Assembly (NCBI GenBank): GCA_026168455.1
Contig: CM047430.1
Location: forward strand, 9,928,848-9,992,847
Reading direction: 5' to 3'
Source of the DNA: Theocolax elegans
Taxonomy: Eukaryota; Arthropoda; Insecta; Hymenoptera; Cerocephalidae
DNA: 64,000 nucleotides
Part shown: in pieces, positions 26,726 through 64,000 of the stretch
How positions within the stretch are numbered: the stretch's first letter is position 1
Layout of the letters: each line of letters opens with the position of its first letter
The notes under the pieces: generated by a model
Told to the model about the DNA's origin: nothing
What the model saw: only the letters and a program-made list of their open reading frames with translations
The model's database searches: none
Program-made: the position numbers and the translations under genes

Positions 26726-27091
26726 ATGGGTAGTAACCGTAGAAGCCATGGTGTTGCAAAGCACGCTCTTTTGTTTATGTTAGATAGTATTAATGCTTCA
26801 AATCCATGGCCTCAAATAATATGGTTTGGTTTCAATGAAAATGGCGCTTCTGCAGATGACCTTTCAAGTATTTTAAATTAAATTATAGTTTTACTGCGTA
26901 GTAATGGAGCAGATCTGCGTTTAACTGTATGTGACCAAGGTAGTGCTAATCGCAAATTGTTTAGTAATTTAAAAATAACTTCTTTAAATCCTTATTTTTT
27001 CGTTAATGAAATCAAAATTTTTGCATGTTTCGATTGGCCTCATCTTATTAAACGACTGATTGCTCAATTAAGGGGATGTCGGATGGTCTAA
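26726..27091 (+). pseudogene. P-element/THAP9-type transposase fragment
   Basis: P-element transposases cut and paste DNA with an RNase H-like fold interrupted by a GTP-binding insertion. The translation has the family's central pattern: HALLFMLDSINASNPWPQ; then VLLRSNGADLRLTVCDQGSA, with the conserved CDQGS that carries a catalytic Asp; then LNPYFFVNEIKIFACFDWP and PHLIK, the conserved stretch that follows in this family. One TAA interrupts the frame after SSILN (about 26,880). The sequence leaves the family pattern soon after PHLIK, at about 27,068, and the frame ends at 27,091, beside the first base of the giant inverted repeat that can be matched in the window. Neither the N-terminal THAP finger nor the C-terminus is present. 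Confidence 0.75.
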
Positions 27092-27492
27092 AACGATGTT
27101 ACGCAGGTCGGTAATTAGTCCGGGCGCTGAGGGGGGTTTCGTGGCCACTTTTTGTCCCCTCGGGAACTTTTCGTATTTGTATGTTTTTTGGATCGTAGAA
27201 ACCGAATTTCTCCCATTTTGAGATATGGCCCATTTTTAATAAAAATACCGAATTTTTTAAGTTTTTCGGAAAATTGACCTTATTTAATGCAAGAATGACT
27301 TTTTATATTATATAAGTATATATTTTTTGTAATAATTACGTACATAAATAGTTATTTTACCGTGAAACAACCCAATAAAAAAAGAAACTCAAATAAAAAG
27401 GCTTAGCAAGCGCGCTCTTTTCTTATGCAGTAGGTGTAATCCGCACTTTTTAAATGTAATATAAGCACATTCATACGCTCATATATATATAT

Positions 27493-27910
27493 GGGCTATT
27501 TCACGTTAAGTGGTACGATGAAAATTTTAAATCGCTCCAAAATTTGAGAACAGGCTGGAAATATCTTCCAGAAGATAGAAAAAAAATTTTAGGTGCTAAA
27601 AATAATTTGCCTACGAGTTATTCCACTATGAAAAATGGAAATTTTTCAATTTTTTAGAAAAATTGCTATTTTCAAAGCCATTTATCTCAAAATCAATTGA
27701 TTTTTTTGAAAAAACATTACAAATAACTTTTGTTCAAAAAAAATTAAAATTTTTCACTTTTTGAGGTTAGAATCAATGTTGGTAAAATTGTTTCTATCAC
27801 TTAACAATTCTGACCTGTCTTCTGGGAAATAACTCTATTTTTTACGATAAAAATGGTGTGGTTTAAAATTTTGGCCAGACGTGTTTATCTGAAATTATCC
27901 ATAAACATAT
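27493..27910. mobile_element. Chimeric fold-back MITE (A-type left, B-like right)
   Basis: It starts with the MITE-A terminus (GGGCTATTTCACGTTAAG) after an ATAT run and follows the A arm to about 27,738. It then switches to AATTTTTCACTTTTTGAGG, a segment characteristic of MITE-B. Its right end (GGTTTAAAATTTTGGCCAGA, then CTGAAATTATCCATA) has the B-like terminal layout but a diverged sequence. It is shorter than either parent (about 420 bp). Confidence 0.65.
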
Positions 27911-28805
27911 ATTGTGACAATGTGCTTCGCACATGTCAACATGATTGAATGCTATTTGAAACTAAAGGGAATACCTACCTACCCGAATAGCTAAGCAACT
28001 ATATATTTAAACATATCTACTCATATAACTTCAACCTTTCCCTATATCTACCTACCCGCACTGGATCTAAGTCCTACCTACCTTCACAATCCTAATAACC
28101 CTTCCCAAATTTCACTAACACACATTAGCACTGGAAATATAAGTAAGCTGAAACGACTAGCGAGAATCCAGATTATCATCAGGACCAGTCTAGGCACCAG
28201 TTGAGGGAGGTCTGGAATCAGCACACAGGGCTTCAAAAAGAGCTATCCTCAACCCAGGGTGTCCGGAGTCAGCATGCAGGCAGTTAATCCGCTGTGAAGA
28301 TAATACCATTTATTTTAGTATATGCTAGTGGTATGTAGGAGAAGAACACAAGGAACACATCCAACTGTATCTTAATATCACAGCCGTATCTGAGTATGAC
28401 AGTTGTATGTTAGGAGAAACAAGGCTGAATTGAGGTTATGTTTGTGTGCACAAATTAGGTGTATAGTAGATAACGAATTAACCTGTTGATACAAACGCAT
28501 ATCAGCACCACCCCAGGACATAAAGAATTACCTGGAGATTTTACATGGAATAGCTGTGGCGACCTTGGTGTTCGGCGTCATCAAGTGAAGCAAAATAGTG
28601 GCAGCTCCAGGTAACGAGGTTGGCGGGACAGCAACGTAGTCGACTTCGCGCCTGAATCTTGCGTCATTATAATTAGTTAACAAGCTGGGATTATAAACGA
28701 GATTATTACCTTAAGAAAATATCAGGTACGACGTCCAAGTGAAGAGAATATTAGCCAGCAGCAGGATAACAGCCACATCGAGGTGCACAAACGCGGTCCA
28801 CCGAG
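27911..28805. other. Moderately GC stretch without an assignable gene
   Basis: It contains three CCTACCTACC-type motifs (about 27,976-28,082) and a stretch at 28,140-28,800 with balanced composition. On the minus strand there are AG acceptors and GT donors that could delimit short exons; the mirrored copy has an 82-codon frame at 62,736-62,984 (LTPTPWVEDSSFCKPCVLIP). No domain is recognisable. It may be a noncoding transcript like the one suspected at 24.3 kb, or part of an unknown element. Confidence 0.3.
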
Positions 28806-28884
28806 TATTTTGCGCTACTTTTTACGTGTCTTTATCGAGCCAAAAGTTGCGCCATAAATTGCGCTACTATATTGAAAATTTGAA

Positions 28885-28930
<46 letters not shown>

Positions 28931-31170
28931 ATTTTATAATAGAAAATGCCTTAAGATCTTTTTTATGTGATTTACAATTGCAATTTTCAATATGAATCCA
29001 ACTTTAAAAAATTTCTAATATTTTGATGAATGCAATCAAATAAAAAAAATGCATATTAATAAAGTTATATTTATTTATTTAACTAAAAGCTCCAAATTTT
29101 GAAAGACAAGATTTTTTGTTTTAAACTCTTACCTCGAGGTTTTTCCAAATTCAAGATGGCAGCATCCAAGATGGTAATATACATAGGAGAATATTTTTTG
29201 ATATTTCGATATTATTAAATAAACAATGTTTTATGATGAATGTTTATCAACATTGGACATACGGCGTAGTTTTTACCATTTCAAGATGGCGGACCCAATA
29301 TAGCGGCAAAAAATTTGGCAAATTCTTCGATTTTTATGAAATTCGATTTACAGGGATTTCTTGGATCGCTGATTACGAAATCGTTATCAGTTTTTACAAA
29401 TTCAAGATGGCGGACCCAATATAGCGGCAAAAAATTTTGCAAATTGTTGAATTTCTATAAATTTTGATTTACAGGGGTTTCTTGGGACGCTGATTACAAA
29501 TACGTTATCACTTTCAACAAATTCAAGATGGCGGACCCAATATAGCGGCAAGAAATTTTGCAAATTGTTGGATTTCTATGAAATCAAAAGGCGCGATAGC
29601 GCCTGGACGCAAGTATGCAGGCGCGTAAGCCCTTATTATACAGCTAACTAACCCCTCATATTTTTTATATTTTCGTACATTTAAAATTATATTTGATTTA
29701 CAGGGGTTTTCTGTGTCGCTGGTTACAAATTCGTTGTTAGTTTTTATTTACATATTCAAGATAGCATAGAAACCAATATGGTGACCACAAGTTCTATTTA
29801 TGTTAAATTTAGTTTAAAAGGTTTTTTGGGCCACGGATTACGGATCCGTAATGATGACTTATGTGCAGCATGCTTTTCCTCCTGAAATAAATAGTCATAA
29901 ATATTCCTCAACGAAAATATTAAAAGTAAACAAAACAAAGAAATTACAAAAAAAACTTACTGACTTACGTGTATTTTTCATGCGATGTGAGCTGAAAAAC
30001 GTGACTCCTTGGCTAACCGACGTAAAATCAGCGACCTATAAACTTAATTTAAAGAAAACTATAAGACAAAAACACAACTGGATTATGTTATATACTTTTA
30101 AAATTTTTGTGTTCTTTTGTTTAGAAGCAAATAATGTAAAGTAAGAAAAAAGAAAATATATATTATTACTTTTTATATTTAAATAAAATGTTCTGATGAT
30201 ATTTAAGGAAATAGGCATATTTTTATATAAAATACGTTTTATTAAGGCCGTATATAAAATATAATAAAAATACAAATATTTCGATGGAAGCCAGCCATTA
30301 AATCATAATCATATATTTTAAGTAAAAATAAATCAGTTTACAATTTTAATAAATAGTAAATTATATGTAGATAATTTAAGAGTGCAATTTTTTTAGGTAC
30401 TGGTATAATGAATTTTTGTTCATTGATGTCAATTAATACGCATATTCTCCATATCTGTTCTGTTCTAATACAAATTTCGTTGCTGCTGCAACGTCTCGAA
30501 TTATACTTGAGTAATGATTCAAAGTTGCTTTATAACCTGACAAATAGATATTTCTTTATCATTAACATCTACAACGAAGTCTATTAACGAATAATAATAA
30601 CTAACGAATTATTATAACGAATTCGTAATCAGTGATCCAAGAAATCCCTGTAAATCGAATTTCATAAAAATCGAAGAATTTGCCTAAGTTCTTGCCGCTA
30701 TATTGGGTCCGCCATCTTTTAAATGGTAAAAACTCCGCCGTATGTCCAATGTTGATAAACATTCATCATAAAACATTGATTATGGAATAATATCGAAATA
30801 TCAAAAAATTTTCTCATATATATATTACCATCTTGGATGCTGCCGTCTTGAATTTGGAAAAACCTCGAGGTAACAGTTTAAAACAAAAAATCTTGTCTTT
30901 CAAAATTTGGAGCTTTTAGCTAAATAAATAAATATACCTTTATTAAAATGCATTTTTTGTATTTGATTGCATTCATCAAAATATTAGAAATTTTTTAAAG
31001 TTGGATTCATGTTGAAAATTGCAATTGAAAATCACATAAAAAAGATCTTAAGGCATTTTCTATTATAAAATTATATAAATATTTATATATATATATTCAA
31101 ATTTTCAATATAGTAGCGCAATTTATGGCGCAACTTTAGGCTCGATAAAGACACGTAAAAAGGTGCGCAA
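28806..31170. mobile_element. 2.4-kb fold-back element with 0.57-kb arms
   Basis: The left arm (28,806-29,385) and right arm (30,612-31,170) are inverted copies. The ends carry TTTACGTGTCTTTATCGAGC and TTGCGCCATAAATTGCGC next to a TA run. The core (29,386-30,611) holds the rest of a tandem repeat, a short GC hairpin (GGCGCGATAGCGCC at about 29,590) and AT-rich sequence with frames below 100 codons. No transposase is visible, so it is non-autonomous. Confidence 0.85.
29279..29600 (+). repeat. 121-bp tandem repeat containing AAGATGGCGGACC
   Basis: Units start at 29,279, 29,400 and 29,521. Each begins TTCAAGATGGCGGACCCAAT, continues ATAGCGGCAA and holds a GATTTACAGGG segment about 70 bp in. The third unit breaks off at about 29,580, before the GC hairpin. 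The repeat straddles the inner end of the left arm of the fold-back element. The motif resembles the YY1/Pho binding consensus (an inference). Confidence 0.85.
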
Positions 31171-31392
31171 AAAGTTGCATCAAAAGTTGCGTCAAAAGTT
31201 ACGCTATTAATTGCGCATACATTTTCAGTAGGATTCCTATTTATTAAAATTGAGCAGAATTGCTAATTTTGTAGCAAAAAGATTTTCGGTTTTAAAATAG
31301 CCCTTTATAGAATATTCAGCTCTTTTAAACAGTGCAACAGTTTTTTCCCGGATTTTTAAATCGATATGAAACGCAGAATATTGCTTCGATAG

Positions 31393-31443
31393 TCTACGGG
31401 GACCGTGCGTACGATAGCCCTAAATCGTGCACGCTCCCCGTAC
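31393..31443. repeat. Satellite hairpin 1
   Basis: TCTACGGGGACCGTGCGTAC pairs with its downstream complement (CGTGCACGCTCCCCGTA) across an eight-base loop, with mismatches. The stem is about 20 bp with a two-base bulge. The most degenerate of the three. Confidence 0.85.
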
Positions 31444-31747
31444 ACCTACCGCAGTAGAAAATTATAAATATTTCAATTTTATTAATTCTATTATCGCAGA
31501 TATTTGTAATTCAGGTTTGTGTGTATCTTTTTACTAACATAATTGAAAATTTGCTAGTGGATGACAAGAAATTAACGAAAACAGATATTTACTATTTATT
31601 AAAATTTAGCAGAATTGCTAATTTCGTCGCAAAAAAATGTTCAGTCTCTAAATTACGTTTTATAGAATATATGCCTCTACTAAACAGTGCATCCGATTTT
31701 TCCCGAATTATTAAATCGATATGAAACGCAGAATATTGCTTCGATAG

Positions 31748-31799
31748 TATACGGGGACCGTGCGCACGATAGCCGTAAATCGTGCACGGTCCCCGTAGA
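31748..31799. repeat. Satellite hairpin 2
   Basis: TACGGGGACCGTGC, bulge GC, ACGAT, loop AGCCGTAA, then ATCGT and GCACGGTCCCCGTA. The stem is 19 bp apart from the bulge. Confidence 0.9.
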
Positions 31800-32103
31800 C
31801 CTACCGCAGTAGAAAATTATAAATATTTCACTTATATTAATTCTATTCTCGCAGATTTTTTGTAATTCGGGTTTGTGTGTATCTTTTTACTAAAATAATT
31901 GAAAATTCGCCAGTAGAAGACAAGAAATTAACCAGAACAAAAATTTACAAATTAGTAAAATTTAGCACAATTGCTAATTTCTTCGCAAAAAAATTTTCAG
32001 TCTCTAAATAACGTTTTATAGAATATTTGTCTCTACTGAAGAGTGCAACTGATTTTTCCCGGATTTTTAAATCGATATGAAACGCAGAATATTGCTTCGA
32101 TAG

Positions 32104-32155
32104 TCTACGGGGACCGCGCGCACGATAGGCGTAAATCGTGCACGGTCCCCGTAGA
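32104..32155. repeat. Satellite hairpin 3
   Basis: TCTACGGGGACCGCGC, bulge, ACGAT, loop AGGCGTAA, ATCGT, GCACGGTCCCCGTAGA. One C/A change in the left arm of the stem relative to hairpin 2. Confidence 0.9.
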
Positions 32156-32461
32156 CGTACCGCAGTAGAATATTGTAAATATTACACATTTATTAATTCT
32201 TTTCTCGCAGATTTTTTGTAATTCGGCTTTGTGTGTATCTTTTTACTAAAATAATTGAAAATCGGCTAGTCGATGATAAGAAATGCACCTGAACAGAGAT
32301 TCATGTAAAGAAACAAATTTAAAATATGTATGTTAGACATGGCATCCAATTACAAGCTCTAAATATATGGCGGCCAGCTCCATGTGTCTTGAAATTAGTA
32401 AAAAAAAATATAAACGTGATTGCATATAACATGAAATATGTATATAATTTTCAATGTATAA

Positions 32462-33310
32462 AACAAGAGACTGTCTCACCAGGATCTCCAATCTGTACAT
32501 CGAGCTTGAAAGGCATCCCCAAAGCCGAGATCGCCTGTTTCGAAGCCGATTAAGGGAATTGTCAGAACCCTCGACTTTGAACGGCCTCGTCTAAATGACG
32601 AGAACAGAGGGTTTAGACACATCACGGGATGCAAAGGAATTTCTCCTATAAATTGCATTCATTCGAACGCTAGGCCACCTACCGCAATACCTCCCCGGGG
32701 ATCCGGGGAGTAATAGGGAGATGTGCTTCGGCATGTCGACAGTTGGACCAATATGACTTTACTATGGTACGCAGGGACTGGGAACCGAGCCCCACGTTGG
32801 CGTACCTGTGAGTCGAAAGTGAAACGCCAGCGTGTCCCCAGTATTGGGTTGGACTCTGCGGGGTATGTGGTTGCAAGCAGGCTTGACGGGTGAAGCGAAG
32901 TTGACCCGGATGCCGCTTATGTTCGAAAGCGGAAGACGGCGGTGAGCTAAACACCGCCGCATCCCTACCGAGAATTACGGCTTAAGGCAAACCGTTGTAA
33001 GGCGGCGTGCTATCGTAAAGAGCTTCGGTACACTTCCTAAGTGGCTTCTCATCGGGGTAAATCGATGCCATAGAAGGCTCTCAGAGAGTTTTACTTTTCG
33101 AACGCATCGGGGAAGCTTTAGGCACCATCGCTGACAAGGGAAACCGACCAACTGTGAAGCTTAGATGACGAGAGCCTCCAGGGCAGCAAATACTGCGGAT
33201 CGATGCGGTGATATTGGCCTAAGGAAAGACTCTAGAACAGTCAAAGAATACTGTATAAAACAACAATGCATTTTACTTTTCGGAAAGCGTTGGTGGCGCC
33301 ATCTCTCGCA
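32462..33310. other. GC-rich, strongly structured block of unknown identity
   Basis: About 850 bp of near-balanced composition in AT-rich surroundings, present in both arms. It contains perfect stem-loops: CTCCCCGG/CCGGGGAG with loop GGAT (32,691-32,710), CCGCTT/AAGCGG (32,913-32,932) and CGGCGGTG/CACCGCCG with a 7-base loop (32,937-32,959). Frames of 60-91 codons overlap on both strands without recognisable content. The density of stems suggests a structured RNA, for example the 5' end of a non-LTR retrotransposon (some carry HDV-like ribozymes) or a SINE-like element. I do not recognise the family. Confidence 0.5.
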
Positions 33311-33540
33311 ACAAATTTTATATTATTGTTTTAACTAACGTTCACACTGCAAAAGTATATTTATTATATAAGATTAAGTAATTATACTTATTATCTTAAT
33401 TTATGCTTCATAAAAATAATTTGAATAATAATTTTTTTGATGACATTTGTTAAGACATGTCGAGAACCCGCCAATTCTCAAAAATCTTAGTGGAGTGGGA
33501 GAAGGTAGTAGTAGATTTCTTTATTGCTTTCTTTATTTTT
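33311..33540. other. AT-rich spacer
   Basis: No gene is seen; short frames only. Confidence 0.5.
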
Positions 33541-33752
33541 TTCAAAAAGTAAGAACGTCAAGCCCTCACATAAATTGTGGTGATAGTTTAGCTGAATTTT
33601 CGTTAAATTTTATATGTATTAAAGGTACGATGTTTGGGTTCAAAATTTTCAAACCAAAGAATCATATCAAAAATATTTATTTTAATGATTCAAAATTTAT
33701 TTAGAGCTTCCTCATTAAAAACTGAAGGGCTTGACGTTCGCACTTTTTCAAA
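33541..33752. mobile_element. Small MITE with about 28-bp terminal inverted repeats
   Basis: The ends are TTCAAAAAGTAAGAACGTCA and, read inward from the right, TTGAAAAAGTGCGAACGTCA; both continue AGCCCT. The length is 212 bp with an AT-rich core. It lies just outside the 3' end of Helitron-2. Confidence 0.65.
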
Positions 33753-33911
33753 ATAAAACCTCTTTTATTCTTATTGAATTCTTATTCAAAAAATAAAAAG
33801 TCCAAATTACCGACTATACCGGTAAGGTATAGTTTTAGCATGCTGTAATTATATAGTTTGATGGATATTCGTATTAGAAAATAATATATTTTTAAATGTC
33901 GAATCGAATTA

Positions 33912-35843
33912 TTATAAAACTTCCGGATAAACAACATTTTTAGTAGTTTTTGTGGGTGAAGTTATTAAAATGAATTGATTCTTTGGGTTTCCAGTACGTG
34001 AAAATGCAACATATAGTTGCCCGTGTGAGAAACATTCTGACCGTAAATCAATTCCGACGTAATTATAAGTTTGACCTTGGGATTTATTGATACTAATTGC
34101 AAATGAAAGTTTTATGGGAAATTGTAAACGTTTAAATTGAAACGGCAAATCTGTAGGGATCATTGGAATGCGCGGAATAAAAGCAGTCTCTCCAGCAGCA
34201 GGACCAGTCAATATGATGGCTTCAATAATGTTATTACGCATCACTTTGACTTGTAATCTAGTACCATTACATAAATTAGGAGGTTGAAGATTGCGTAGTA
34301 ATATTATTGGAGTTCCTATTTTAAGTTTTAAATTATGTGGAGAAAATCCTGCCGGATGTAATGAATTAAGAAATTCTTGAGGAAAATGTACAACGTCTTC
34401 AGTATTGACAATTGTATCAATAGATAAATATTCTTTTATATCACCATTAAATTTAATTAAAATATAATGATTAATTTCTTCAGCAAGAGCATTTCGTGGT
34501 GAAATAATTGCTCTTTCACACAGCCAAAGATAAGACTTCTGTGATAAATTTTATTTATTTATTTTATTTATTTATTTATTAACTCCAGACATTACAATAT
34601 TTTACAATAAAAAATGTATCCTATAGAGGTGCACACTGCACCTGTACATAGGAGCCGGAGAACTTAACACTATATTTTCAATATCAGGATAAACTTTCGA
34701 TATAAGATCATCCAGAGTTGAAACAACTTGACCAAGATTATCTTCAATGTGAATGTAACTATTATTATTATCTATAGTACCATTTCCCATTTTTAATAAT
34801 TGCTCGGAAAAGTCCGGGTTACCCCCACCAAGATACGCTCTCATATTTGTGCGCAAATGTAAAGTTTCAACATTATTCCATATTTGCGATGATTTTAAAC
34901 ATGCTTTAGCAATATCAGCTCTTGTTCCTTTTGTTATAACTGGTAAAGTCTGACGAAAATCGCCAGAAAAAACAAATGTTACAGCACCCAATAACAAATT
35001 AACAGATTTGAGATCCCGTAAAGTTTTATCAATAGCTTCTATATGTACTCTATGAGTCATAGTACATTCATCCCATACAATAAGGATCGTTTCTTGGAGA
35101 ATTTGGCCTAAAGGACCATTTTTACGAATGGAACATACAAAATCTTGATCACAAAATACATTCAATGGTAACTTGAAAGTCGAATGCGCTGTTCTACCGC
35201 CTTTAAGAAGAGTTGCAGCAATGCCAGAAGATGCAACAGCTACGGCTATATTACCCGTTGATCGTATTTTGTCCAATAATAAATTAATTAAAAATATTTT
35301 ACCCGTTCCACCAGGGGCATCAATAAAAAAAACTTTTCCACATTTGTTAGCAGCACTATTGATAATAGCATCATATGCGTATTTTTGATCAGGTACTAAT
35401 TTAGATAAATTAACTTGAACATTATTTATTAAGTCATCGATATTGAAGCGTGTAATAGATTCTGTGAAAGGACTATTAGAAGGTTGTTCTTCACGAACTG
35501 GAGATTGCATTCCAAATTCCTGTAGATATTTTTCAGAAAGTTTCACAACTCTATCTTCTATTTCAATTAAACCTTGATTAAAAATATTATCAGAGTAAGT
35601 TAACGTGATATCGTTATTACGTTGACGTTCTTTGTGAAGAATATCTTCACATAAATCTTTTTGAAACCTTTCCCATAATAAAATAGGTTGAGATGGTTGA
35701 CAAAACACTAAAATAATAGCAAATAAGTCCCTCATCTTTGAAGATGTTTGTGATATTGCAGCATCAGCTAATGTGTTTTTCCATTGGTCATCATTTTCTA
35801 ATAGTCCGAGCGCTTGACATGCTGCTTTAAAAGTGAGATATAT
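33912..35843 (-). pseudogene. Helitron-2 Pif1-like helicase half (left arm)
   Basis: Continues the Rep protein beyond MITE-C: SKMRDLFAIILVFCQPSQPI; then LVPDQKYAYDAI; Walker [11 protein letters not shown] (about 35,315); SGIAATLLKGGRTAHSTFKL; Walker [31 protein letters not shown]. After PDIENIVLSS the frame enters the LINE fragment. It resumes after it with SYLWLCERAIISPRNALAEE and motif VI ([20 protein letters not shown], then LYVAFSRTG). The residue after GK in Walker A is Ile rather than Thr/Ser, which should abolish nucleotide binding; Helitron-1 keeps GKT. Confidence 0.88.
34546..34670 (-). mobile_element. 5'-truncated LINE/SINE 3' end inside Helitron-2
   Basis: On the minus strand the helicase coding is broken by a segment containing TATGTACAGGTGCAGTGTGC, ending in (TAAA)n/(AATA)n repeats. 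A short unique piece followed by an A-rich simple repeat is what target-primed insertion of a truncated retroposon leaves. The family is not identified, and the target duplication was not clear. Confidence 0.6.
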
Positions 35844-35845
35844 TA

Positions 35846-37071
35846 CACTCTAAACCCTAAAGTGTAAAAACTGAACCTAAAAAGTATAAAAATGTCAATT
35901 TACTATTTTGAAAAGATTAAATTTATAGAATTCCTCTTTTGAAGAGAGTAAATAACGAAAATTACACTTTGATTAGTGTAAAATGCTATATTTCTATTTT
36001 TCTAAAGTGTAAAAAGCGAAAATTCCACTATAAGAGAAGTATAAATTGCGATTTTTACTCCTTTGAAAAGTATAATTTTTCAGACGTTGTCTTGAAAAGA
36101 GCAAATAATGGATTTTATACTTTAGGTAAACTTTAAAACGATAAATTTACACTTTTGAAAAGTTGAAATTGCGATTTTTCCTCTTTTGTAAAGTATAATT
36201 TTTCGAACCTTCATTTTCAAAGAGTAAATAGTGGATACTACACTTTCCGTAAAACTGAAAATGCTAAATTTATACTTTTTAAAAGTGTAAATTTAGTGTT
36301 TTAAACTTTAGCTAAAGTACACGGAGAAACATTTCTTACGTTTAACCTATAAAATTGGCGTGTGCTCTCTAATCAAGCGTATGTTTATAGTTTAATCCCG
36401 TGGCGTTACAGGTTTAACCTATAAAGTTTGATGTCTTTAATGTGTAGCATCAATTTCACATAGGTTGAACCTGTGAGTGCATTAGAACGAATCTTAATAC
36501 GCTTAGGTTAAAACTGTACACATACGCTTGGTTAGAGAGCACGTCAATTTATAGGTTAAACGTAAGAAATTTTTCTCCGTGTACAAAATCTATTACTTAC
36601 TCTTTGAGAATTAACGCCCAAAAATTTATACTTTTCAAAAGTATAAATTTAGCATTTTCAACTTTACGGAAAGTGTAGAATCCACTATTTACTATTTGAA
36701 AATGAAGGTCCAAAAAATTATACTTTACAAAAGAGGAAAAATCGCAATTTCAACTTTTCAAAAGTGTAACTTTATCGTTTTAAACTTTACCTAAAGTATA
36801 AAATACATTATTTGCTCTTTTCAAGACAACGTCTGAAAAATTATATTTTTCAAAGGAGTAAAAATCGCAATTTATACTTTTCTTATAGTGGAATTTTCGC
36901 TTTTTACACTTTAGAAAAATAGAAATATAGCATTTTACACTAATCAAAGTGTAATTTTCGTTATTTACTCTCTTCAAAAGAGGAATTCTATAAATTTAAT
37001 CTTTTCGAAAATAGTAAATTGACATTTTTATACTTTTTAGGTTCAGTTTTTACACTTTAGGGTTTAGAGTG
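35846..37071. mobile_element. MITE-C, fold-back element inserted in the Helitron-2 gene
   Basis: The ends are CACTCTAAACCCTAAAGTG and its exact complement; the arms of about 470 bp are near-perfect inverted repeats. TA flanks both sides (35,844-35,845 and 37,072-37,073). Removing the element and one TA restores a reading frame that aligns with Helitron-1 (TVNGVIYPTFKAACNALG), so both the boundaries and the TA duplication are supported. TA duplication suggests mobilisation by a Tc1/mariner-type transposase. Confidence 0.92.
36320..36581. mobile_element. MITE-D nested in MITE-C
   Basis: It begins CACGGAGAAACATTTCTTAC and ends GTAAGAAATTTTTCTCCGTG, flanked by TA at 36,318-36,319 and 36,582-36,583. 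It is 262 bp and internally palindromic (TTTAACCTATAAA motifs recur in both orientations). It sits off-centre in the loop region of MITE-C and is therefore younger. Confidence 0.88.
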
Positions 37072-37073
37072 TA

Positions 37074-50729: not shown

Positions 50730-50950
50730 TTAGTTAATATTAATGCAAATATTTCGTAACACCTTAAAAATTCCCAGAATTCCCAAGAACTCTCGTAAAT
50801 AATGAAAATATCCAGAAAATTCTCGAAAAATTCTGTAATTAATGCAACAAATCTCGGAACTCCTAAAAAATCCAGTAATTAATGAAAATATTCCATGATT
50901 CCCGAAAAATCCCGTAATTAATGCAAATATCCCGAAATAGTTTAAGAACC
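50730..50950. repeat. Degenerate tandem repeat, right-arm copy
   Basis: The mirror of 40,151-40,360. One extra T in a T run shifts the repetitive frame relative to the left arm. Confidence 0.7.
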
Positions 50951-51406
50951 GGCGACGAAGAAGTTTTTTTAATAGTATAGAACGCAATTGTAGTTTGAAC
51001 GTCGCATCAATAATTTATCTTACTAATATATAAGAGAAAAGGTTTGTTTATATGTAACCAATAAACGCAAAAACTACTAAACCGAATATTTGAAACTTTG
51101 CATATAGATTTGTTATACATCTGGAGAGACATAGGCTATATACACATTCATTTTTTAATGCATTATTTGTGAAAAAAAACATGGGACTATATTGCCATAG
51201 CGTAGTAGGGACTACTTCGCGTAGGAAGGTGTTCTGCGGTCGGCGCTATACATATGCGCATGCTTCGCTCAACGACCGATAGGTGGCGACCGGTTTTACT
51301 ATTCCCATTACAAAATTTGCACGCAGACAATATTAATACGCCTCGAGCCATAGATGTATTCGTCATTTCGGCATTATTTTTACTTGCGTTTATTGCAAAA
51401 ATCAAA

Positions 51407-54010
51407 ATGTCTAAATCTAGTAAAACTAATTTGTCGAGAAGAACTGCTCGAACTAGAGCAATGAGAGATCGACGACTTAATGAAAGTCGTGATGATCGTG
51501 AATCTCGACTGTCGCAAATGTCTTCACAACAAACATTGCGACTTTCTCGAGAAACAGATTCTCAAAGAGAGTTATGTTTGGTAACTCAACGAATGCAAAC
51601 TTCTGTTAGTAGACGTCGGGAGTCTATTGATGAAAGAATTCAAAGGCTTGCAAATCAACGATTGCGTAATACTAACAATCGACGTACCTTACAAAATATT
51701 TGTGGTCAAAGATCTGCATTTGAATATCAACCTGAATTAAATTATGCAGGTTTTAAAGATATTCAAATAGGTGAAATGAATAAGATTTGTATTCACTGTG
51801 ATGCAAAAAATGGAAAGACGAAGCACCTGGACTTTGTGTGCTAATGGTAAAGTACATCTTCCACTATTAGAAGAGCCTCCGTAGTTTATGAATGATTTAA
51901 TATTAGGTATTCATAGGGATTCAGCACATTTTCTTGATAATTGCAGGCAATATAATACATTATTTCAAATGACTTCTTTTGGCACTAAAGAAATCAAAGA
52001 AGGAAGCTTTATGCCTACATCTAAAATTCAAGGCCAAGTTTATCATTTAATTGGTAGTATGTTACCAAATCCTCATGAAATCATAAATTTTTACAAATTT
52101 ATTTTATGTCTGAAAATGATCAAATTTCGGCACGATCGCATATTAATCCAAATTTAAAAGTAGAACTTATAAAATCATTGCAAAGGCTACTATTACAAAA
52201 TAATAATTTAATAAAAAGTTTTAAATACAATCTTGAAAATAATTATTTACAAAATTTAAATAATTTTAAACTGATTATACATTCAGATCGTGTACCTAAT
52301 GATGAACATAGGGGTCGATACAATGCTCCTACTTGCAACGAAGTTGCGGTTTTATTGCTTGACGAAGACAAAGGTCTAGAGATATTGTCTTACATCATAG
52401 AGGTGGTCATTTACAACGTGTATCTGAACTCATCGTTCTTACGACCCTTTACAATATCCTTTAATGTTACTAAATGAGAAGATGGATATTACTTGACTAT
52501 TCAACAACGAACTAATACTTCTAAACAGTAACTTGCATGCAATTTTATGCTTATAGATTAATGGTGAGGACAAAATAGTATCAACTATTTACTGTATTTT
52601 ACAAATTTATTAAATCAATATGTTGTAGATTAATAAGGCAAAAATGACAACCGAAAGGCTACTTTTTATTCGTAGCAATCAAAAAAAATTACGCACAGAT
52701 GATTATATACATCTTCAAGATGCTATTAATAATGATGCCAATATTAACCCTGGAAATATTGGGCAATATGTTATTTTGCCATCTTCATTTACAGGTTCAC
52801 GCCGTTACATGCATGAGAAAACTCAAGATGCGATGACATACGTACGTAAAAAAGGACGCCCGGATTTGTTTATAACTTTTACATGCAATCCTGAATGGCC
52901 TGAAATACGCAGAGAGATATTTCCAAATCAAAAATCGTTTGATAGACACGATATCATTTCCAGAGTTTTTCATTTAAAAGTTAAGATGTTGATGCACTTA
53001 TTAACTAAAAATTGTATATTTGGTTCTGTTAAATGTAATATGTTTAGTATAGAATGGCAAAAACGAGGTTTGCCACACGCGCAATATACTATTATGGCTT
53101 CAAATAAAAATTCAACCAGATGAAATTGATAAAATTATTTCTGCTGAATTGCCAGATAAAGACATGGACCCTGAATTATTTCAAATTGTTTGCAAAAATA
53201 TGATTCATGCGGTGAATTTAATATGAATTCACCCTGTTTAACTAATGGAAAATGTACAGACAATTATCCAAGATATTTTTTAGAGAATACTGTAACTGGT
53301 GAAAATGGCTATCCACTATACCGCCGAAGGTCTCCGCAGAATAGTGGGCACACTACTCAAATTAAAATTCGCAATCAAATGGTACTAATTGACAATAGAT
53401 GGATTGTCCCATATTCACCATTGTTATTAAGATGTTTTAATGCTCATATTAATGTTGAATACTGCCATTCAGTGCAAGCCATAAAATACATATGCAAATA
53501 TATAAATAAGGGTACAGATCAAACAACATTTTCTATCAATAATAATGATGAAATTAGTATTTATATCAATGGTCGTTACATATGCACTTCAGAAGCAATG
53601 TGGAGGTTTTCGACTTTCCAATACATGAAATGTATCCAGCTGTAGTACATTTAGCTGTTCATTTAGAAAATTGTCAACGTGTTTATTTTACTGAAGATAC
53701 CATTCAACAATTCCTTGAACATCCGCGGAGTACAACACTCACAGCTTGCTTTGATTTGGCTTCTTCGGATGATTTTGCTAAAACATACTATATCACGAGG
53801 TTCCTACATATTATGTATGGAATAATAACAAATTTTCTAGAAGGAAACTGGCCAAGACGTTGAAGCATATTCTGGTATTAAAAAAGATGCTGCTTTAGAT
53901 AGAGTTTACACAGTTCATCCTAATCAAGTCGAATGCTTTCACCTAAGGATGTTATTACACATATTCGTGGACCAACTTCATTTGAATCACTTAAACTAGT
54001 TCAATAGTGT
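51407..54010 (+). pseudogene. Helitron-2 Rep half, right-arm copy, more broken
   Basis: The same protein as at 37,074-39,681 from the ATG at 51,407. Extra frame breaks not in the left arm include loss of one T near 51,838 (GTGTGC for GTTGTGC), loss of one A near 52,083 (CATGAAATC for CATGAAAATC), loss of one A near 52,528 (CTAAACAG for CTAAAACAG), gain of a T near 52,631, and changes near 53,080 and 53,613. Rep motif 1 and the tyrosine motif are readable; at the HUH site the text reads LPHAQYT because of a local change (CACGCGCAATAT for CACACGCGCATATAC-type), which removes the second His in this copy. Confidence 0.85.
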
Positions 54011-54012
54011 AC

Positions 54013-55244
54013 ACTCTAAACCCTAAAGTTGTAAAAACGATACCTAAAAAGTATAAAAATGTCAATTTACTATTTTCGAAAAGATTAAATTTATAGAATT
54101 CCTCTTTTGAAGAGAGGTAAATAACGAAAATTACACTTTGATTAGTGTAAAATTGCTATATTTCTATTTTTCTAAAGTGTAAAAAAGCGAAAATTCCACT
54201 ATAAGAAAAGTATAAATTGCGATTTTTTACTCCTTTGAAAAATATAATTTTTTCAGACGTTGTCTTGAAAAGAGCAAATAAATGTATTTTATACTTTAGG
54301 GTTAAAGTTTAAAACGATAAAGTTACACTTTTGAAAAGTTGAAATTGCGATTTTTTCCTCTTTTGTAAAGTATAATTTTTTGGACCTCATTTTCAAATAG
54401 TAACTAGTGGATTCTACACTTTCCGTAAAGTTGAAAATGCTAAATTATACTTTTGAAAAGTATAAATTTTTTGGGCGTTAATTCTCAAAGAGTAAGTAAT
54501 AGATTTTGTACACGGAGAAAAATTTCTTACGTTTAACCTATAAATTGACGTGCTCTCTAACCAAGCGTATGTGTACAGTTTTAACCTAAGCGTATTAAGA
54601 TTCGTTCTAATGCACTCACAGGTTCAACCTATGTGAAATTGATGCTACACATTAAAGACATCAAACTTTATAGGTTAAACCTGTAACGCCACGGGATAAA
54701 CTATAAACATACGCTTGATTAGAGAGCACACGCCAATTTTTATAGGTTAAACGTAAGAAATGTTTCTCCGTGTACTTTAGCTAAAGTTTAAACACTAAAT
54801 TTACACTTTTAAAAAGTATAAATTAGCATTTTCAGTTTTACGGAAAGTGTAGTATCCACTATTTACTCTTTGAAAATGAAGGTTCGAAAAATTATACTTT
54901 ACAAAGAGGAAAAATCGCAATTTCAACTTTTCAAAAGTGTAAATTTATCGTTTTAAAGTTACCTAAAGTATAAAATCCATTATTTGCTCTTTTCAAGACA
55001 ACGTCTGAAAATTATACTTTTCAAAGGAGTAAAAATCGCAATTTATACTTCTCTTATAGTGGAATTTTCGCTTTTTACACTTTAGAAAAATAGAAATATA
55101 GCATTTTTACACTAATCAAAGTGTAATTTTCGTTATTTACTCTCTTCAAAGAGGAATTCTATAAATTTAATCTTTTCAAATAGTAGTAAATTGACATTTT
55201 TATACTTTTTAGGTTCAGTTTTTACACCTTTAGGGTTTAGAGTG
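54013..55244. mobile_element. MITE-C, right-arm copy
   Basis: The mirror of 35,846-37,071, flanked by TA at 54,011-54,012 and 55,245-55,246. Confidence 0.9.
54511..54772. mobile_element. MITE-D, right-arm copy, nested in MITE-C
   Basis: The mirror of 36,320-36,581, 262 bp, flanked by TA at 54,509-54,510 and 54,773-54,774. Confidence 0.88.
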
Positions 55245-55246
55245 TA

Positions 55247-57180
55247 ATATATCTCACTTTTAAAGCAGCATGTCAAGCGCTCGGGACTATTAGAAAATGA
55301 TGACAATGGAAAAACACATTAGCTGATGCTGCAATATCACAAACATCTTCAAAGATGAGGGAACTATTTGCTATTATTTTAGTGTTTTTGTCAACCATCT
55401 CAACCTATTTTATTATGGGAAAGGTTTCAAAAAGATTTATGTGAAGATATCTTCACAAAGAACGTCAAGTAATAACGATATCACGTTAACTTACTCTGAT
55501 AATATTTTTAATCAAGGTTTAATTGAAATAGAAGATAGAGTTGTGAAACTTCTGAAAAATATCTACAGGAATTTGGAATGCAATCTCCAGTTCGTGAAGA
55601 ACAACCTTCTAATAGTCCTTTCACAGAATCTATTACACGCTTACAATATCGATGACGTAATAAATAATGTTCAAGTTAATTTATCTAAATTAGTACCTGA
55701 TCAAAAATACGCACTATGATGCTATTATCAATAGTGCTGCTAACAATGTGGAAAGTTTTTTTTATTGATGCCCCTGGTGGAACGGGTAAAATATTTTTAA
55801 TTAATTTATTATTGGACCAAATACGATCAACGGGTAATATCAGCCGTAGCTGTTGCATCTCTGGCATTGCTGCAACTCTTCTTAAAGGCGGTTTAGAACA
55901 GCGCATTCGACTTTCAAGTTACCATTGAATGTATTTTGTGATCAAGATTTTGTATGTTCCATTCGTAAAAATGGTCCTTTAGGCCAAATTCTCCAAGAAA
56001 CGATCCTTATTGTATGGGATGAATGTACTATGACTCATAGAGTACATATAGAAGCTATTGATATAAAACTTTACGGGATCTCAAATCTGTTAATTTGTTA
56101 TTGGGTGCTGTAACATTTGTTTTTTCTGGCGATTTTCGTCAGACTTTACCAGTTATAACAAAAGGAACAAGAGCTGATATTGCTAAAGCATGTTTAAAAT
56201 CATCGCAAATATGGAATAATGTTGAAACTTTACATTTGCGCACAAATATGAGAGCGTATCTTGGTGGGGGTAACCCGGACTTTTCCGAGCAATTATTAAA
56301 AATGGGAAATGGTACTATAGATAATAATAATAGTTACATTCACATTGAAGATAATCTTGGTCAAGTTGTTTCAACTCTGGATGATCTTATATCGAAAGTT
56401 TATCCTGATATTGAAAATATAGTGTTAAGTTCTCCGGCTCCTATGTACAGGTGCAGTGTGCACCTCTATAGGATACATTTTTTATTGTAAAATCTATTGT
56501 AATGTCTGGAGTTAATAAATAAATAAATAAAATAAATAAATAAAATTTATCACAGAGTCTTATCTTTGGCTGTGTGAAAGAGCAATTATTCACCACGAAA
56601 TGCTCTGCTGAAGAAATTAATCATTTATATTTAATCTAAATTTAATGGTGATATAAAAGAATATTTATCTATTGATACAATGTCAATACTGAAGACGTTG
56701 TACATTTTTCCTCAAGAATTTCTTAATTCATTACATCCGGCAGGATTTTCTCCACATAATTTAAAAACTTAAAATAGGAACTCCAATAATATTACTACGC
56801 AATCTTCAACCTCCTAATTTATGTAATGGTACTAGATTTACAAGTCAAAGTGATGCGTAACTAACATTATTGAAGCCATCATATTGACTGGTCCTGCTTG
56901 CTGGAGAGACTGCTTTTATTCCGCGCATTCCAATGATCCCTACAGATTTGCCGTTTCAATTTAAACGTTACAATTTCCCATAAAACTTTCATTTGCAATT
57001 AGTATCAATAAATCCCAAGGTCAAACTTATAATTACGTCGGAATTGATTTACGGTCAGAATGTTTCTCACACGGGCAACTATATGTTGCATTTTCACGTA
57101 CTGGAAACCCAAAGAATCAATTCATTTAATAACTTCACCCACAAAAACTACTAAAATGTTGTTTATCCGGAAGTTTTATA
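55247..57180 (+). pseudogene. Helitron-2 helicase half, right-arm copy
   Basis: The same helicase as at 33,912-35,843, split into at least five frames by single-base changes. Walker A again reads PGGTGKIF, so the Thr-to-Ile change predates the duplication. The middle ([20 protein letters not shown] to PDIENIVLSS) is intact. It is interrupted by the same LINE fragment at about 56,430-56,555. Confidence 0.85.
56430..56555 (+). mobile_element. LINE/SINE 3' fragment, right-arm copy
   Basis: The mirror of 34,546-34,670, ending in the AATA/TAAA simple repeat. Confidence 0.6.
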
Positions 57181-57340
57181 ATAATTCGATTCGACATTTA
57201 AAAATATATTATTTTCTAATACGAATATCCATCAAACTATATATTACAGCATGCTAAAACTATACCTTACCGGTATAGTCGGTTAATTTGGACTTTTTAT
57301 TTTTTGAATAAGAATTCAATAAGAATAAAAGAGGTTTTAT

Positions 57341-57550
57341 TTTGAAAAAGTGCGAACGTCAAGCCCTTCAGTTTTTAATGAGGAAGCTCTAAATAATTTT
57401 TGAATCATTAAAATAAATATTTTTGATATGATTCTTGGTTTGAAAATTTTGAACCCAAACATCGTACCTTTAATACATATAAAATTTAACGAAAATTCAG
57501 CTAAACTATCACCACAATTTAGTGTGAGGGCTTGACGTTCTTACTTTTTG
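57341..57550. mobile_element. Small MITE, right-arm copy
   Basis: The mirror of 33,541-33,752. Confidence 0.6.
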
Positions 57551-57779
57551 AAAAAAATAAAGAAAGCAATAAAGAAATCTACTACTACCTTCTCCACTCC
57601 ACTAAGATTTTTGAGAATTGGCGGGTTCTCGACATGTCTTAACAAATGTCATCAAAAAAATTATTATTCAAATTATTTTTTATGAAGCATAAATTAAGAT
57701 AATACAGTATAATTACTTAATCTTATATAATAATATACTTTTGCAGTGTGAACGTTAGTTAAAACAATAATATAAAATT

Positions 57780-58625
57780 TGTTGGAGAGAGATGGCGCCA
57801 CCAACGCTTTCCGAAAGTAAAATGCATTGTTGTTTTATACAGTATTCTTTGACTGTTCTAGAGTCTTTCCTTAGGCCAATATCACCGCATCGATCCGCAG
57901 TATTTGCTGCCCTGGGGAGGCTCTCGTCATCTAAGCTTCACAGTTGGTCGGTTTCCCTTGTCAGCGATGGTGCCTAAAGCTTCCCCGATGCGTTCGAAAA
58001 GTAAAAACTCTCTGAGAGCCTTCTATGGCATCGATTTACCCCGATGAGAAGCCACTTAGGAAGTGTACCGAAGCTCTTTACGATAGCACGCCGCCTTACA
58101 ACGGTTTGCCTTAAGCCGTAATTCTCGGTAGGGATGCGGCGGTGTTTAGCTCACCGCCGTCTTCCGCTTTCGAACATAAGCGGCATCCGGGTCAACTTCG
58201 CTTCACCCGTCAAGCCTGCTTGCAACCACATACCCCGCAGAGTCCAACCCAATACTGGGGACACGCTGGCGTTTCACTTTCGACTCACAGGTACGCCAAC
58301 GTGGGGCTCGGTTCCCAGTCCCTGCGTACCATAGTAAAGTCATATTGGTCCAACTGTCGACATGCCGAAGCACATCTCCCTATTACTCCCCGGATCCCCG
58401 GGGAGGTATTGCGGTAGGTGGCCTAGCGTTCGAATGAATGCAATTTATAGGAGAAATTCCTTTGCATCCCAGTGATGTGTCTAAACCCTCTGTTCTCGTC
58501 ATTTAGACGAGGCCGTTCAAAGTCGAGGGTTCTGACAATTCCCTTAATCGGCTTCGAACAGGCGATCTCGGCTTTGGGGATGCCTTTCAAGCTCGATGTA
58601 CAGATTGGAGATCCTGGTGAGACAG
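57780..58625. other. GC-rich structured block, right-arm copy
   Basis: The mirror of 32,462-33,310, with the same stem-loops and only a few differences. Confidence 0.5.
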
Positions 58626-58799
58626 TCTCTTGTTTTATACATTGAAAATTATATACATATTTCATGTTATATGCAATCACGTTATATTTTTTTTACTAAT
58701 TTCAAGACACATGGAGCTGGCCGCCATATATTTAGAGCTTGTAATTGGATGCCATGTCTAACATACATATTTTTAAATTTGTTTCTTACATGAATCTCT

Positions 58800-59862
58800 G
58801 TTCAGGTGCATTTCTTATCATCGACTAGCCGATTTTCAATTATTTTAGTAAAAAGATACACACAAAGCCGAATTACAAAAAATCTGCGAGAAAAGAATTA
58901 ATAAATGTGTAATATTTACAATATTCTACTGCGGTACGTCTACGGGGACCGTGCACGATTTACGCCTATCGTGCGCGCGGTCCCCGTAGACTATCCGAAG
59001 CAATATTCTGCGTTTCATATCGATTTAAAAATCCGGGAAAAATCAGTTGCACTCTTCAGTAGAGACAAATATTCTATAAAACGTTATTTAGAGACTGAAA
59101 ATTTTTTTGCGAAGAAATTAGCAATTGTGCTAAATTTTACTAATTTGTAAATTTTTGTTCTGGTTAATTTCTTGTCTTCTACTGGCGAATTTTCAATTAT
59201 TTTAGTAAAAAGATACACACAAACCCGAATTACAAAAAATCTGCGAGAATAGAATTAATATAAGTGAAATATTTATAATTTTCTACTGCGGTAGGTCTAC
59301 GGGGACCGTGCACGATTTACGGCTATCGTGCGCACGGTCCCCGTATACAATCGAAGCAATATTCTGCGTTTCATATCGATTAATAATTCGGGAAAAAATC
59401 GGATGCACTGTTTAGTAGAGGCATATATTCTATAAAACGTAATTTAGAGACTGAACATTTTTTGCGACGAAATTAGCAATTCTGCTAAATTTTAATAAAT
59501 AGTAAATATCTGTTTTCGTTAATTTCTTGTCATCCACTAGCAAATTTTTCAATTATGTTAGTAAAAAGATACACACAAACCTGAATTACAAAATATCTGC
59601 GATAATAGAATTAATAAAATTGAAATATTTATAATTTTCTACTGCGGTAGGTGTACGGGGAGCGTGCACGAGTTAGGGCTATCGTACGCACGGTCCCCGT
59701 AGACTATCGAAGCAATATTCTGCGTTCATATCGATTTAAAAATCCGGGAAAAAACTGTTGCACTGTTTAAAAGAGCTGAATATTCTATAAAGGGCTATTT
59801 TAAAACCGAAAATTCTTTTTGCTACAAATTAGCAATTCTGCTCAATTTTTAATAAATAGGAA
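58800..59862. repeat. 355-bp hairpin satellite, right-arm copy
   Basis: Three units in reverse order. Hairpins lie at 58,939-58,990, 59,296-59,347 and 59,652-59,703, and the stem-and-bulge design matches the left arm. Confidence 0.9.
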
Positions 59863-62282
59863 TCCTACTGAAAATGTATGCGCAATTAATAGCGTAACTT
59901 TTGACGCAACTTTTGATGCAACTTTTTGCGCACCTTTTTACGTGTCTTTATCGAGCCTAAAGTTGCGCCATAAATTGCGCTACTATATTGAAAATTTGAA
60001 TATATATATATAATATTTATATAATTTTATAATAGAAAATGCCTTAAGATCTTTTTTTATGTGATTTCAATTGCAATTTTCAACATGAATCCAACTTTAA
60101 AAAATTTCTAATATTTTGATGAATGCAATCAAATACAAAAAATGCATTTTAATAAAGGTATATTTATTTATTTAGCTAAAAGCTCCAAATTTTGAAAGAC
60201 AAGATTTTTTGTTTTAAACTGTTACCTCGAGGTTTTTCCAAATTCAAGACGGCAGCATCCAAGATGGTAATATATATATGAGAAAATTTTTTGATATTTC
60301 GATATTATTCCATAATCAATGTTTTATGATGAATGTTTATCAACATTGGACATACGGCGGAGTTTTTACCATTTAAAAGATGGCGGACCCAATATAGCGG
60401 CAAGAACTTAGGCAAATTCTTCGATTTTATGAAATTCGATTTACAGGGATTTCTTGGATCACTGATACGAATTCGTTATAATAATTCGTTAGTTATTATT
60501 ATTCGTTAATAGACTTCGTTGTAGATGTTAATGATAAAGAAATATCTATTTGTCAGGTTATAAAGCAACTTTGAATCATTACTCAAGTATAATTCGAGAC
60601 GTTGCAGCAGCAACGAAATTTGTATTAGAACAGAACAGATATGGAGAATATGCGTATTAATTGACATCAATGAACAAAAATTCATTATACCAGTACCTAA
60701 AAAAATTGCACTCTTAAATTATCTACATATAATTTACTATTTATTAAAATTGTAAACTGATTTATTTTTACTTAAAATATATGATTATGATTTAATGGCT
60801 GGCTTCCATCGAAATATTTGTATTTTTATTATATTTTATATACGGCCTTAATAAAACGTATTTTATATAAAAATATGCCTATTTCCTTAAATATCATCAG
60901 AACATTTTATTTAAATATAAAAAGTAATAATATATATTTTCTTTTTTCTTACTTTACATTATTTGCTTCTAAACAAAGAACACAAAAATTTTAAAAGTAC
61001 TTATAACATAATCCAGTTGTGTTTTTGTCTTATAGTTTTCTTTAAATTAAGTTTATAGGCGCTGATTTTACGTCGGTTAGCCAAGGAGTCACGTTTTTTC
61101 AGCTCACATCGCATGAAAAATACACGTAAGTCAGTAAGGTTTTTTTTGTAATTTCTTTGTTTGTTACTTTAATATTTTCGTCTGAGGAATATTTATGACT
61201 ATTTATTTAGGAGGAAAAGCATGCTGCACATAAGTCATCATACGGATCCGTAATCCGTGGCCCAAAAACCCTTTTAAACTAAATTTAACATAAATAGAAC
61301 TTGTGGTCACCATATTGGTTTCTATGCTATCTTGAATATGTAAATAAAACTAACAACGAATTTGTAACCAGCGACACCAGAAAACCCCTGTAAATCAAAT
61401 ATAATTTTAACATGTACGAAAATATAAAAATATGAGGGCGTTAGTTAGCTGTATAATACAAGGGCTTACGCGCCTGCATACTTGCGTCCAGGCGCTATCG
61501 CGCCTTTTGATTTCATAGAAATCCAACAATTTGCAAAATTTCTTGCCGCTATATTGGGTCCGCCATCTTGAATTTGTTGAAAGTGATAACGTATTTGTAA
61601 TCAGCGTCCCAAGAAACCCCTGTAAATCAAAATTTATAGAAATTCAACAATTTGCAAAATTTTTTGCCGCTATATTGGGTCCGCCATCTTGAATTTGTAA
61701 AAACTGATAACGATTTCGTAATCAGCGATCCAAGAAATCCCTGTGTAAATCGAATTTCATAAAAATCGAAGAATTTGCCAAATTTTTTTGCCGCTATATT
61801 GGGTCCGCCATCTTGCAATGGTAAAAACTACGCCGTATGTCCAATGTTGATAAACATTCATCATAAAACATTGTTTATTTAATAATATCGAAATATCAAA
61901 AAATATTCTCCTATGTATATTACCATCTTGGATGCTGCCATCTTGAATTTGGAAAAACCTCGAGGTAAGAGTTTAAAACAAAAATTCTTGTCTTTCAAAA
62001 TTTGGAGCTTTTAGTTAAATAAATAAATATAACTTTATTAATATGCACTTTTTTTATTTGATTGCATTCATCAAATATTAGAAATTTTTTAAAGTTGGAT
62101 TGCATATTGAAAATTGCAATTGTAAATCACATAAAAAAGATCTTAAGGCATTTTTCTATTATAAAATTATATAAATATATATATAATCTATATCATATAT
62201 ATTATATCTATATTTTTTCAAATTTCAATATAGTAGCGCAATTTATGGCGCAACTTTTGGCTCGAATAAAGACAAGTACATA
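59863..62282. mobile_element. 2.4-kb fold-back element, right-arm copy
   Basis: The mirror of 28,806-31,170, including the 121-bp tandem repeats (about 61,505-61,830 on the minus strand) and the GGCGCTATCGCGCC hairpin near 61,491-61,504. Confidence 0.85.
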
Positions 62283-63179
62283 AGTAGCGCAAAATACTCG
62301 GTGGACCGCGTTTGTGCACCTCGATGTGGCTGTTATCCTGCTGCTGGCTAATATTCTCTTCACTTGGACGTCCGTACCTGATATTTTCTTAAGGTAATAA
62401 TCTCGTTTATAATCCCAGCTTGTTAACTAATTATAATGACGCAAGATTCAGGCGCGAAGTCGACTACGTGCTGTCCCGCCACCTCGTTACCTGGAGCTGC
62501 CACTATTTTGCTTCACTTGATGACGCCGAACACCAAGGTCGCCACAGCTATTCCATGTAAAATCTCCAGGTAATTCTTTATGTCCTGGGGTGGTGCTGAT
62601 ATGCGTTTGTTATCAACAGGTTAATTCGTATCTACTATACACCTAATTTGTGCACACAAACATAACCTCAATTCAGCCTTGTTTCTCCTAACATACAACT
62701 GTCATACTCAGATACGGCTGTGATATTAGATACAGTTGGATGTGTTCCTTGTGTTCTTCTCCTACATACCACTAGCAATACTAAATAAATGGTATTATCT
62801 TCACAGCGGATTTACTGCCTGCATGCTGACTCCGACACCCTGGGTTGAGGATAGCTCTTTTTGTAAGCCCTGTGTGCTGATTCCAGACCTCCCTCAACTG
62901 GTGCCTAGACTGGTCCTGATGATAATCTGGATTCTCGCTAGTCGTTTCAGCCTTACTTATATTTCCAGTGCTAATGTGTGTTAGTGAAATTTGGGAAGGG
63001 TTATTAGGATTGTGAAGGTAGGTAGGACTAGATCCAGTGCGGGTAGGTAGATATAGGGAAAGGTTGAAGTCTATATGAGTAGATATGTTTAAATATATAG
63101 GTGCTTAGCTATTCGGGTAGGTAGGTATTCCCTTTAGTTTCAAATAGCATTCAATCATGTTGACATTTGCGAAGCACAT
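62283..63179. other. Mirror of 27,911-28,805, no gene assigned
   Basis: On the plus strand, TCTTCACAG (about 62,800) and CTCCAGGTAATTC (about 62,566) could be splice sites around short exons, and an 82-codon frame spans 62,736-62,984. Nothing is recognisable. GGTAGGTAGG motifs recur at 63,017-63,126. Confidence 0.3.
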
Positions 63180-63602
63180 TGTCACAATATATGTTTATGG
63201 ATAATTTCAGATAAACACGTCTGGCCAAAATTTTAAACCACACCATTTTTATCGTAAAAATAGAGGTTATTCCCAGAAGACAGGTCAGAATGTTAAGTGA
63301 TAGAAACAATTTTACCAACATTGATTCTAACCTCAAAAAGTGAAAAATTTTTAATTTTTTTGAACAAAGTTATTGTAATGTTTTTTTCAAAAAAATCAAT
63401 TGATTTGAGATAAATGGCTTTGAAAATAGCAATTTTTCTAAAAAATTGAAAAATTTCCATTTTTCATAGTGGAATAACTCGTAGGCAAATTATTTTAGCA
63501 CCTAAAATTTTTTTTCTATCTTCTGGAAGATATTTCCAGCCTGTTCTCAAATTTTGGAGCGATTTAAAATTTTCATCGTACCACTTAACGTGAAATAGCC
63601 CA
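63180..63602. mobile_element. Chimeric MITE, right-arm copy
   Basis: The mirror of 27,493-27,910; its A-type terminus (ACGTGAAATAGCCC) ends at about 63,601 before a TA run. Confidence 0.65.
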
Positions 63603-64000
63603 TATATATATATGAGCGTATGAATGCTTATATTACATTTAAAAAGTGCGGATTACACCTACTGCATAAGAAAAGAGCGCGCTTGCTAAGCCTTTTTATT
63701 GAGTTTCTTTTTTATTGGGTTGTTTCACGGTAAAATAACTATTTATGTACGTAATTATTACAAAAAAATATACTTATATAATATAAAAGTCATTCTTGCA
63801 TTAAATAAGGTCAATTTTCCGAAAAACTTAAAAAATTCGGTTTTTTATTAAAAATGGGCCATATCTCAAAATGGGAGAAATTCGGTTTCTACGATCCAAA
63901 AAACATACAAATACGAAAAGTTCCCGAGGGGACAAAAAGTGGCCACGAAACCCCCCTCAGCGCCCGGACTAATTACCGACCTGCGTAACATCGTTTTAGA
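63603..64000. other. Outer part of the right arm
   Basis: The mirror of 27,087-27,492. It includes ATATCTCAAAATGGGAGAAA and a G/C-rich end (GAGGGGACAAAAAGTGGCC), which look like the terminal part of another DNA element, unidentified. No gene. Confidence 0.45.

Follow-up and report, generated by a model that had tools for sequence, protein, structure and literature searches.

The palindrome that runs to the end of the 64,000-nucleotide stretch of DNA analyzed here (the window, C6:9,928,848-9,992,847) is very probably, judging from its sequence, an artefact of assembly rather than a feature of the chromosome, a judgement that covers artefacts of any kind and counts missed-adapter and computational-misjoin routes inside it. 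The real chromosome would most likely hold a single copy of a 22-kb stretch which the assembly presents as A, its reverse copy A', and a further forward copy A''. The preliminary description had weighed an artefact against an amplicon or a sex- or germline-chromosome palindrome; the former is supported by error-type differences in A' and by the pattern of alleles, while the latter finds no support here, and a real palindrome or a sex- or germline-chromosome amplicon as the main reading is set aside on account of the one-sided pattern of errors.

The assembly comprises 658 Mb in 1,277 contigs, and the C6 scaffold holding the window is 74.8 Mb long. Coordinates are given as window positions, with values above 64,000 or below zero lying in flanking C6 sequence. 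BLASTN of the window against itself returned one reverse-complement match, 27,087-64,000, at 98.03% identity; the inverted duplication originally noticed over this interval is present in the assembly, is larger than first thought, and has a match length that puts a chance origin out of the question. The window's two halves, in a tuned alignment of 18,592 columns, differed by 98 substitutions and by 256 indels, of which 240 were single-base. We joined the 13 neighboring 10-kb stretches (130 kb) to the window and ran self-BLAST on the resulting 194 kb. The end of the window truncates the palindrome, whose full span is 23,706-67,339 with arms of ∼21.8 kb (98.08% identical), in keeping with the initial estimate of arms of at least 18.4 kb. 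The same search located A'', in forward orientation, at 67,330-92,302 after the palindrome, matching A in three pieces: 67,330-76,124 to 23,484-32,295; 75,416-87,622 to 31,234-43,435; and 89,745-92,302 to 43,447-45,986. Along C6 the order is A, reverse A', and A'', with outer flanking sequence present on both sides. No gap of Ns lies at either turn in the 194 kb examined; the sole N run there, 100 bases at C6:9,890,009-9,890,108, is far from the turns. The two arms are:

23,706-45,540, forward strand: arm A, the first copy, from self-BLAST of the 194 kb and three-way odd-one-out counts.
45,543-64,000, reverse strand, continuing to 67,339 beyond the window: arm A', the reverse copy, from self-BLAST and alignments.

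The first turn, from A' into A, lies inside a repeated element, and two features define it:

45,098-45,986, no strand assigned: native-type foldback element of ∼890 bp with two ∼440-bp inverted halves, the palindrome being centered on its loop.
45,318-45,340, no strand assigned: turn 1, placed by aligning the junction in either orientation with the native A'' copy and read by eye.

The axis that had been put at 45,543 falls at the central loop of this element, as located by alignment to the A'' copy. The two halves of the element are ∼90% similar, and A'' holds, at ∼91,410-92,310, a native copy that has a right flank of its own. Reading from A' to A, the junction consists of flank, half a, the loop, ∼200 bp of half b, and then the reverse complement of half a. 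At turn 1 the sequence crosses from one inverted half of a single native element to the other, and the structure of the turn is the result that would be expected if a 3' end in half b folded onto half a and was extended.

The foldback family, which consists almost wholly of two inverted halves, gave at least 86 matches in the genome (both strands) from the 40 scored of 3,965 first-look candidates. Another copy is found in the window at 13,640-14,532, and a more diverged foldback-like element at 43,591-44,965, with halves ∼80% alike and surroundings that are also rich in differences, adjoins the element at the axis. Four foldback copies at C7:34,614,048-34,670,114 lie ∼18.39 kb apart with the same best strand, apparently as an 18.4-kb direct tandem array.

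At turn 2, position 23,716 on the reverse strand abuts 23,484 on the forward strand, and ∼230 bp is skipped; the exact sequence shared at the join is 2 bp, or ∼7 bp by eye if a read error is allowed. Two turns at both ends of one stretch would come naturally from a SMRTbell template, in which the polymerase circled one 22-kb insert, the adapters went undetected and the passes were left joined, and Warris and colleagues (PMC6218980) list missed adapters among the origins of palindromic reads. We regard this route as very unlikely. Such a template should turn at the ends of the insert without loss of sequence, yet turn 1 occupies the loop of a native inverted repeat and involves a change of halves, and turn 2 drops ∼230 bp, and an insert end needs neither. 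Using the PacBio adapter core as query and allowing at most three mismatches, we found no match in the window or in the neighboring 10-kb stretch that holds turn 2, a result to be read with the provision that a trimmed adapter would leave none.

The three copies differ sharply in how often each is the odd one out. We aligned A, A', and A'' three ways, refining the alignment segment by segment; some clusters of substitutions are probably alignment noise and were kept in the counts. At A coordinates 32.4-41.4 kb, A' was the odd copy at 120 of 127 differences, A'' at six (five substitutions and one deletion in 9 kb), and A at one. If the three copies are treated equally, the probability of this excess in A' is ∼10^-47.5, a value computed over neighboring events that are not fully independent. 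The 120 odd events in A' comprised 48 deletions, 43 insertions, and 29 substitutions, with 1-2 bp indels making up 91 of them, and 52% of the single-base indels (n = 81) adjoined runs of at least three, against a background of 33%.

Differences are concentrated in A' and beside the turns. Odd events in A are sparse up to ∼41.7 kb and dense from there to turn 1, and those in A'' fall mostly at 68.3-72.3 kb with few beyond (the density table for A'' omits insertions of at least 10 bp), leaving a stretch dense in odd events at ∼41.7-72.3 kb (∼31 kb) that spans both turns and contains sparse patches. At 24.4-28.4 kb, the indels and substitutions numbered 32 and 17 in A', 34 and 39 in A'', and 5 and 2 in A. 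In the three-way alignment, A was odd by 66 substitutions versus 33 indels at 43.5-45.33 kb, and A' by 56 substitutions versus 35 indels at 28.4-32.4 kb. Pairwise alignment gave fewer substitutions in these regions (30 substitutions and 49 indels at 43.1-45.1 kb near turn 1; 11 and 51 at 28.1-32.1 kb), and the substitution excess is therefore probably in part a matter of gap placement. In the final 200 bp up to the axis there are 26 substitutions and three indels, which is expected because that part of A comes from the element's other half. A' reads as a copy of A bearing errors of the sequencing kind rather than evolutionary substitutions, as in a fold-back, and the pattern is mixed near turn 1. 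A natural palindrome homogenized by conversion should have nearly identical arms, with errors no more frequent in one than in the other; these arms are 98.08% identical, with the differences concentrated in A'.

These counts also bear on a purely computational misjoin, in which the assembler walked between the foldback halves and returned on the opposite strand of the same contig with no chimeric molecule involved. The switch does fall between two ∼90% similar halves, yet a copied path would yield an identical arm, not one with 120 odd events in 9 kb; moreover, the halves are just ∼440 bp long and turn 2 is almost without homology. We consider such a misjoin highly improbable, the least probable of the routes weighed here.

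The same one-sidedness was seen in the reading frames of the copies:

34,605-35,849, reverse strand: 415-codon Helitron PIF1 helicase frame that stays open in A and, at 78,788-80,032, in A''.
37,060-39,969, reverse strand: Helitron N-terminal frames of 284, 248, 193, and 250 codons, intact in both A and A'' and shortened in A'.

The PIF1 domain is nearly complete in the 415-codon frame of A. Its counterpart in A' is broken, the pieces of at least 90 codons being 130 and 142 codons long, and only the second part of the PIF1 domain is recognized there. All 21 differences in this frame were odd in A', as were 15 of the 17 at 37,060-39,969, the other two being odd in A''. The broken frames and the odd counts together place the errors in A' and not in A.

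Elsewhere in the window, an uninterrupted frame of 956 codons at 9,783-12,650 carries endonuclease and reverse-transcriptase domains and is possibly a young non-LTR retrotransposon. Rfam at its gathering threshold gave no match in the window, and ARAGORN run with the bacterial code found nothing in it.

As controls, we compared other repeats in the assembly. Over 10 kb, eight substitutions and four gaps separate two units of the 18.4-kb direct tandem array on C7 (99.87% identical), and near-identical duplicates can therefore be error-poor in this assembly. Substitutions exceeded gaps when half was compared with half in the foldback copy at 13,605-14,567 (26 substitutions, one gap), the copy in A'' (35 and four), and the element at 43,591-44,965 (71 and 26). 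The same was true of the repeat at 14,914 compared with 16,514 (56 and 11), two inverted pairs in A (25 and two; 25 and eight), and a 355-bp tandem unit (40 and one). Two short pieces compared as a further control did not match each other. Three local direct repeats (-24,247/-20,941, 95,159/96,967, and 98,384/100,095) had more gaps than substitutions (three substitutions and 10 gaps, one and seven, and 10 and 12), so residual errors occur in near-identical repeats elsewhere too, and error-type differences are not confined to the palindrome. These three C6 repeats are 1.8-2.5 kb long and 98.5-99.6% identical, and they are perhaps more unpolished duplications.

Alleles separate the copies along a different line. 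In the three-way alignment, A and A' share one allele and A'' has another at five SNPs (36,846, 38,462, 39,566, 40,577, and 40,896), and one extra 357-bp tandem unit in A'' is absent from both A and A'. A third allelic difference is a deletion:

43,435-43,465, forward strand: scar of a 2.1-kb deletion in a retrotransposon-like frame, in A and A' (mirror at ∼47,640) and not in A''.

The sequence missing from A and A' corresponds to 87,622-89,745 in A'', outside the window, and the scar holds a short filler that resembles neighboring sequence. The five SNPs and the tandem unit fall in the clean part of A, and the deletion falls in its error-rich end. Both arms carry the same alleles at all of these sites, as arms derived from one molecule would, and because A and A' agree against A'' at the SNPs, the tandem unit, and the deletion, the appearance is that of one molecule seen on both strands in A and A', with A'' as the second haplotype. 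BLAST had at first counted 65 mismatches in 12.2 kb between A and A'', which suggested that A'' was well diverged from A; these probably arose from a misplaced 357-bp tandem unit, given that A'' stood out at just five substitutions and one deletion in 9 kb once all three copies were aligned.

The order of the copies raises a biological alternative, an interstitial inverted triplication truly present in the chromosome (A, inverted A, A) and formed by replicative template switching of the ODIRA type at inverted repeats, with a middle copy that would have been poorly polished for want of reads with a unique placement. Interstitial inverted triplications whose junctions lie at interrupted inverted repeats are an expected product of ODIRA in the account we draw on (PMC4689423). 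The A-A'-A'' order with both outer flanks kept, the position of turn 1 within a ∼440-bp inverted pair, and the ∼230 bp skipped at turn 2 all fit, and both turns are of a type that replication template switching could make too. True copies should assemble about equally well, yet A' is odd at 120 of 127 differences, and they would stem from one chromosome, yet A and A' share alleles against A''. Turn 2, with an exact homology of just 2 bp (∼7 bp by eye with a read error), likewise fits poorly. The likeness to ODIRA or DUP-TRP/INV-DUP triplications (PMC4689423) lies in the A, inverted A, A order; the difference is that the copies here are unequal in quality and in alleles, which a triplication of a single sequence does not predict, although later mutation could in principle also separate A''. 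We hold a real triplication to be very unlikely.

The explanation we favor is a fold-back artefact. A long read, or the library molecule behind it, would have folded back upon itself when one end inside half b of the native inverted-repeat element paired with half a. The strand would then have run back across the same 22 kb, making A and A' two readings of one molecule, and turned a second time near 23,484-23,716 with the loss of ∼230 bp. The assembler may have taken this two-turn molecule as a link between one haplotype's contig end and the beginning of a contig from the other, A''. A single read would bridge the dense stretch, and a step of library preparation may be at fault. Against an artefact stands the placement of the stretch within the 74.8-Mb scaffold, with sequence to either side and no N gap at the turns. 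A simple model of a single raw read also fails to predict how unevenly odd events are spread in A' (0 to 21 per 500-bp bin), or that the first kb of A'' past turn 2 holds only three.

Related artefacts have been described. Fold-backs made up 0.55-0.6% of the nanopore genomic reads in the figures given by Heinz and colleagues, with virtually none in HiFi reads, and library preparation is there thought their most likely source (PMC12870357). Our case resembles those reads, as characterized in that report, in being an inverted duplication of one molecule for which other reads would be expected to give no support; it differs in being known from the assembly alone, in having two turns, and in involving a ∼31-kb stretch. 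Palindromes were present in 44-48% of the reads of two amplified Arabidopsis sets, compared with 0.5% in a control, in the data cited from Warris and colleagues, where some reads hold up to 15 palindromes and uncorrected reads lead to inverted duplications in contigs (PMC6218980). Several turns per molecule and inverted duplications in contigs are what our case shares with these products of multiple displacement amplification (PMC6218980), whereas nothing here indicates an amplified library. Retained haplotypes and read errors are both given as causes of false duplications in a further report (PMC9516828). A and A'' resemble two haplotypes placed side by side and A' resembles a read-error copy, with the difference from the false duplications outlined there (PMC9516828) that here one of the copies is inverted and no gap separates them.

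As an artefact, the palindrome would enlarge a chromosome-scale assembly by ∼43 kb of duplication and would be called as an inverted duplication or a gene gain. Its significance would be mainly one of quality control, and it illustrates a test that needs no reads, in which three copies are compared, the odd one is identified, and its differences are checked for indels. In the very improbable event that the chromosome does carry a 22-kb inverted triplication, perhaps heterozygous or somatic, with its first junction made by a template switch between foldback halves, the ∼890-bp foldback elements, present in many copies in the genome, would act as hot spots for inverted amplification.
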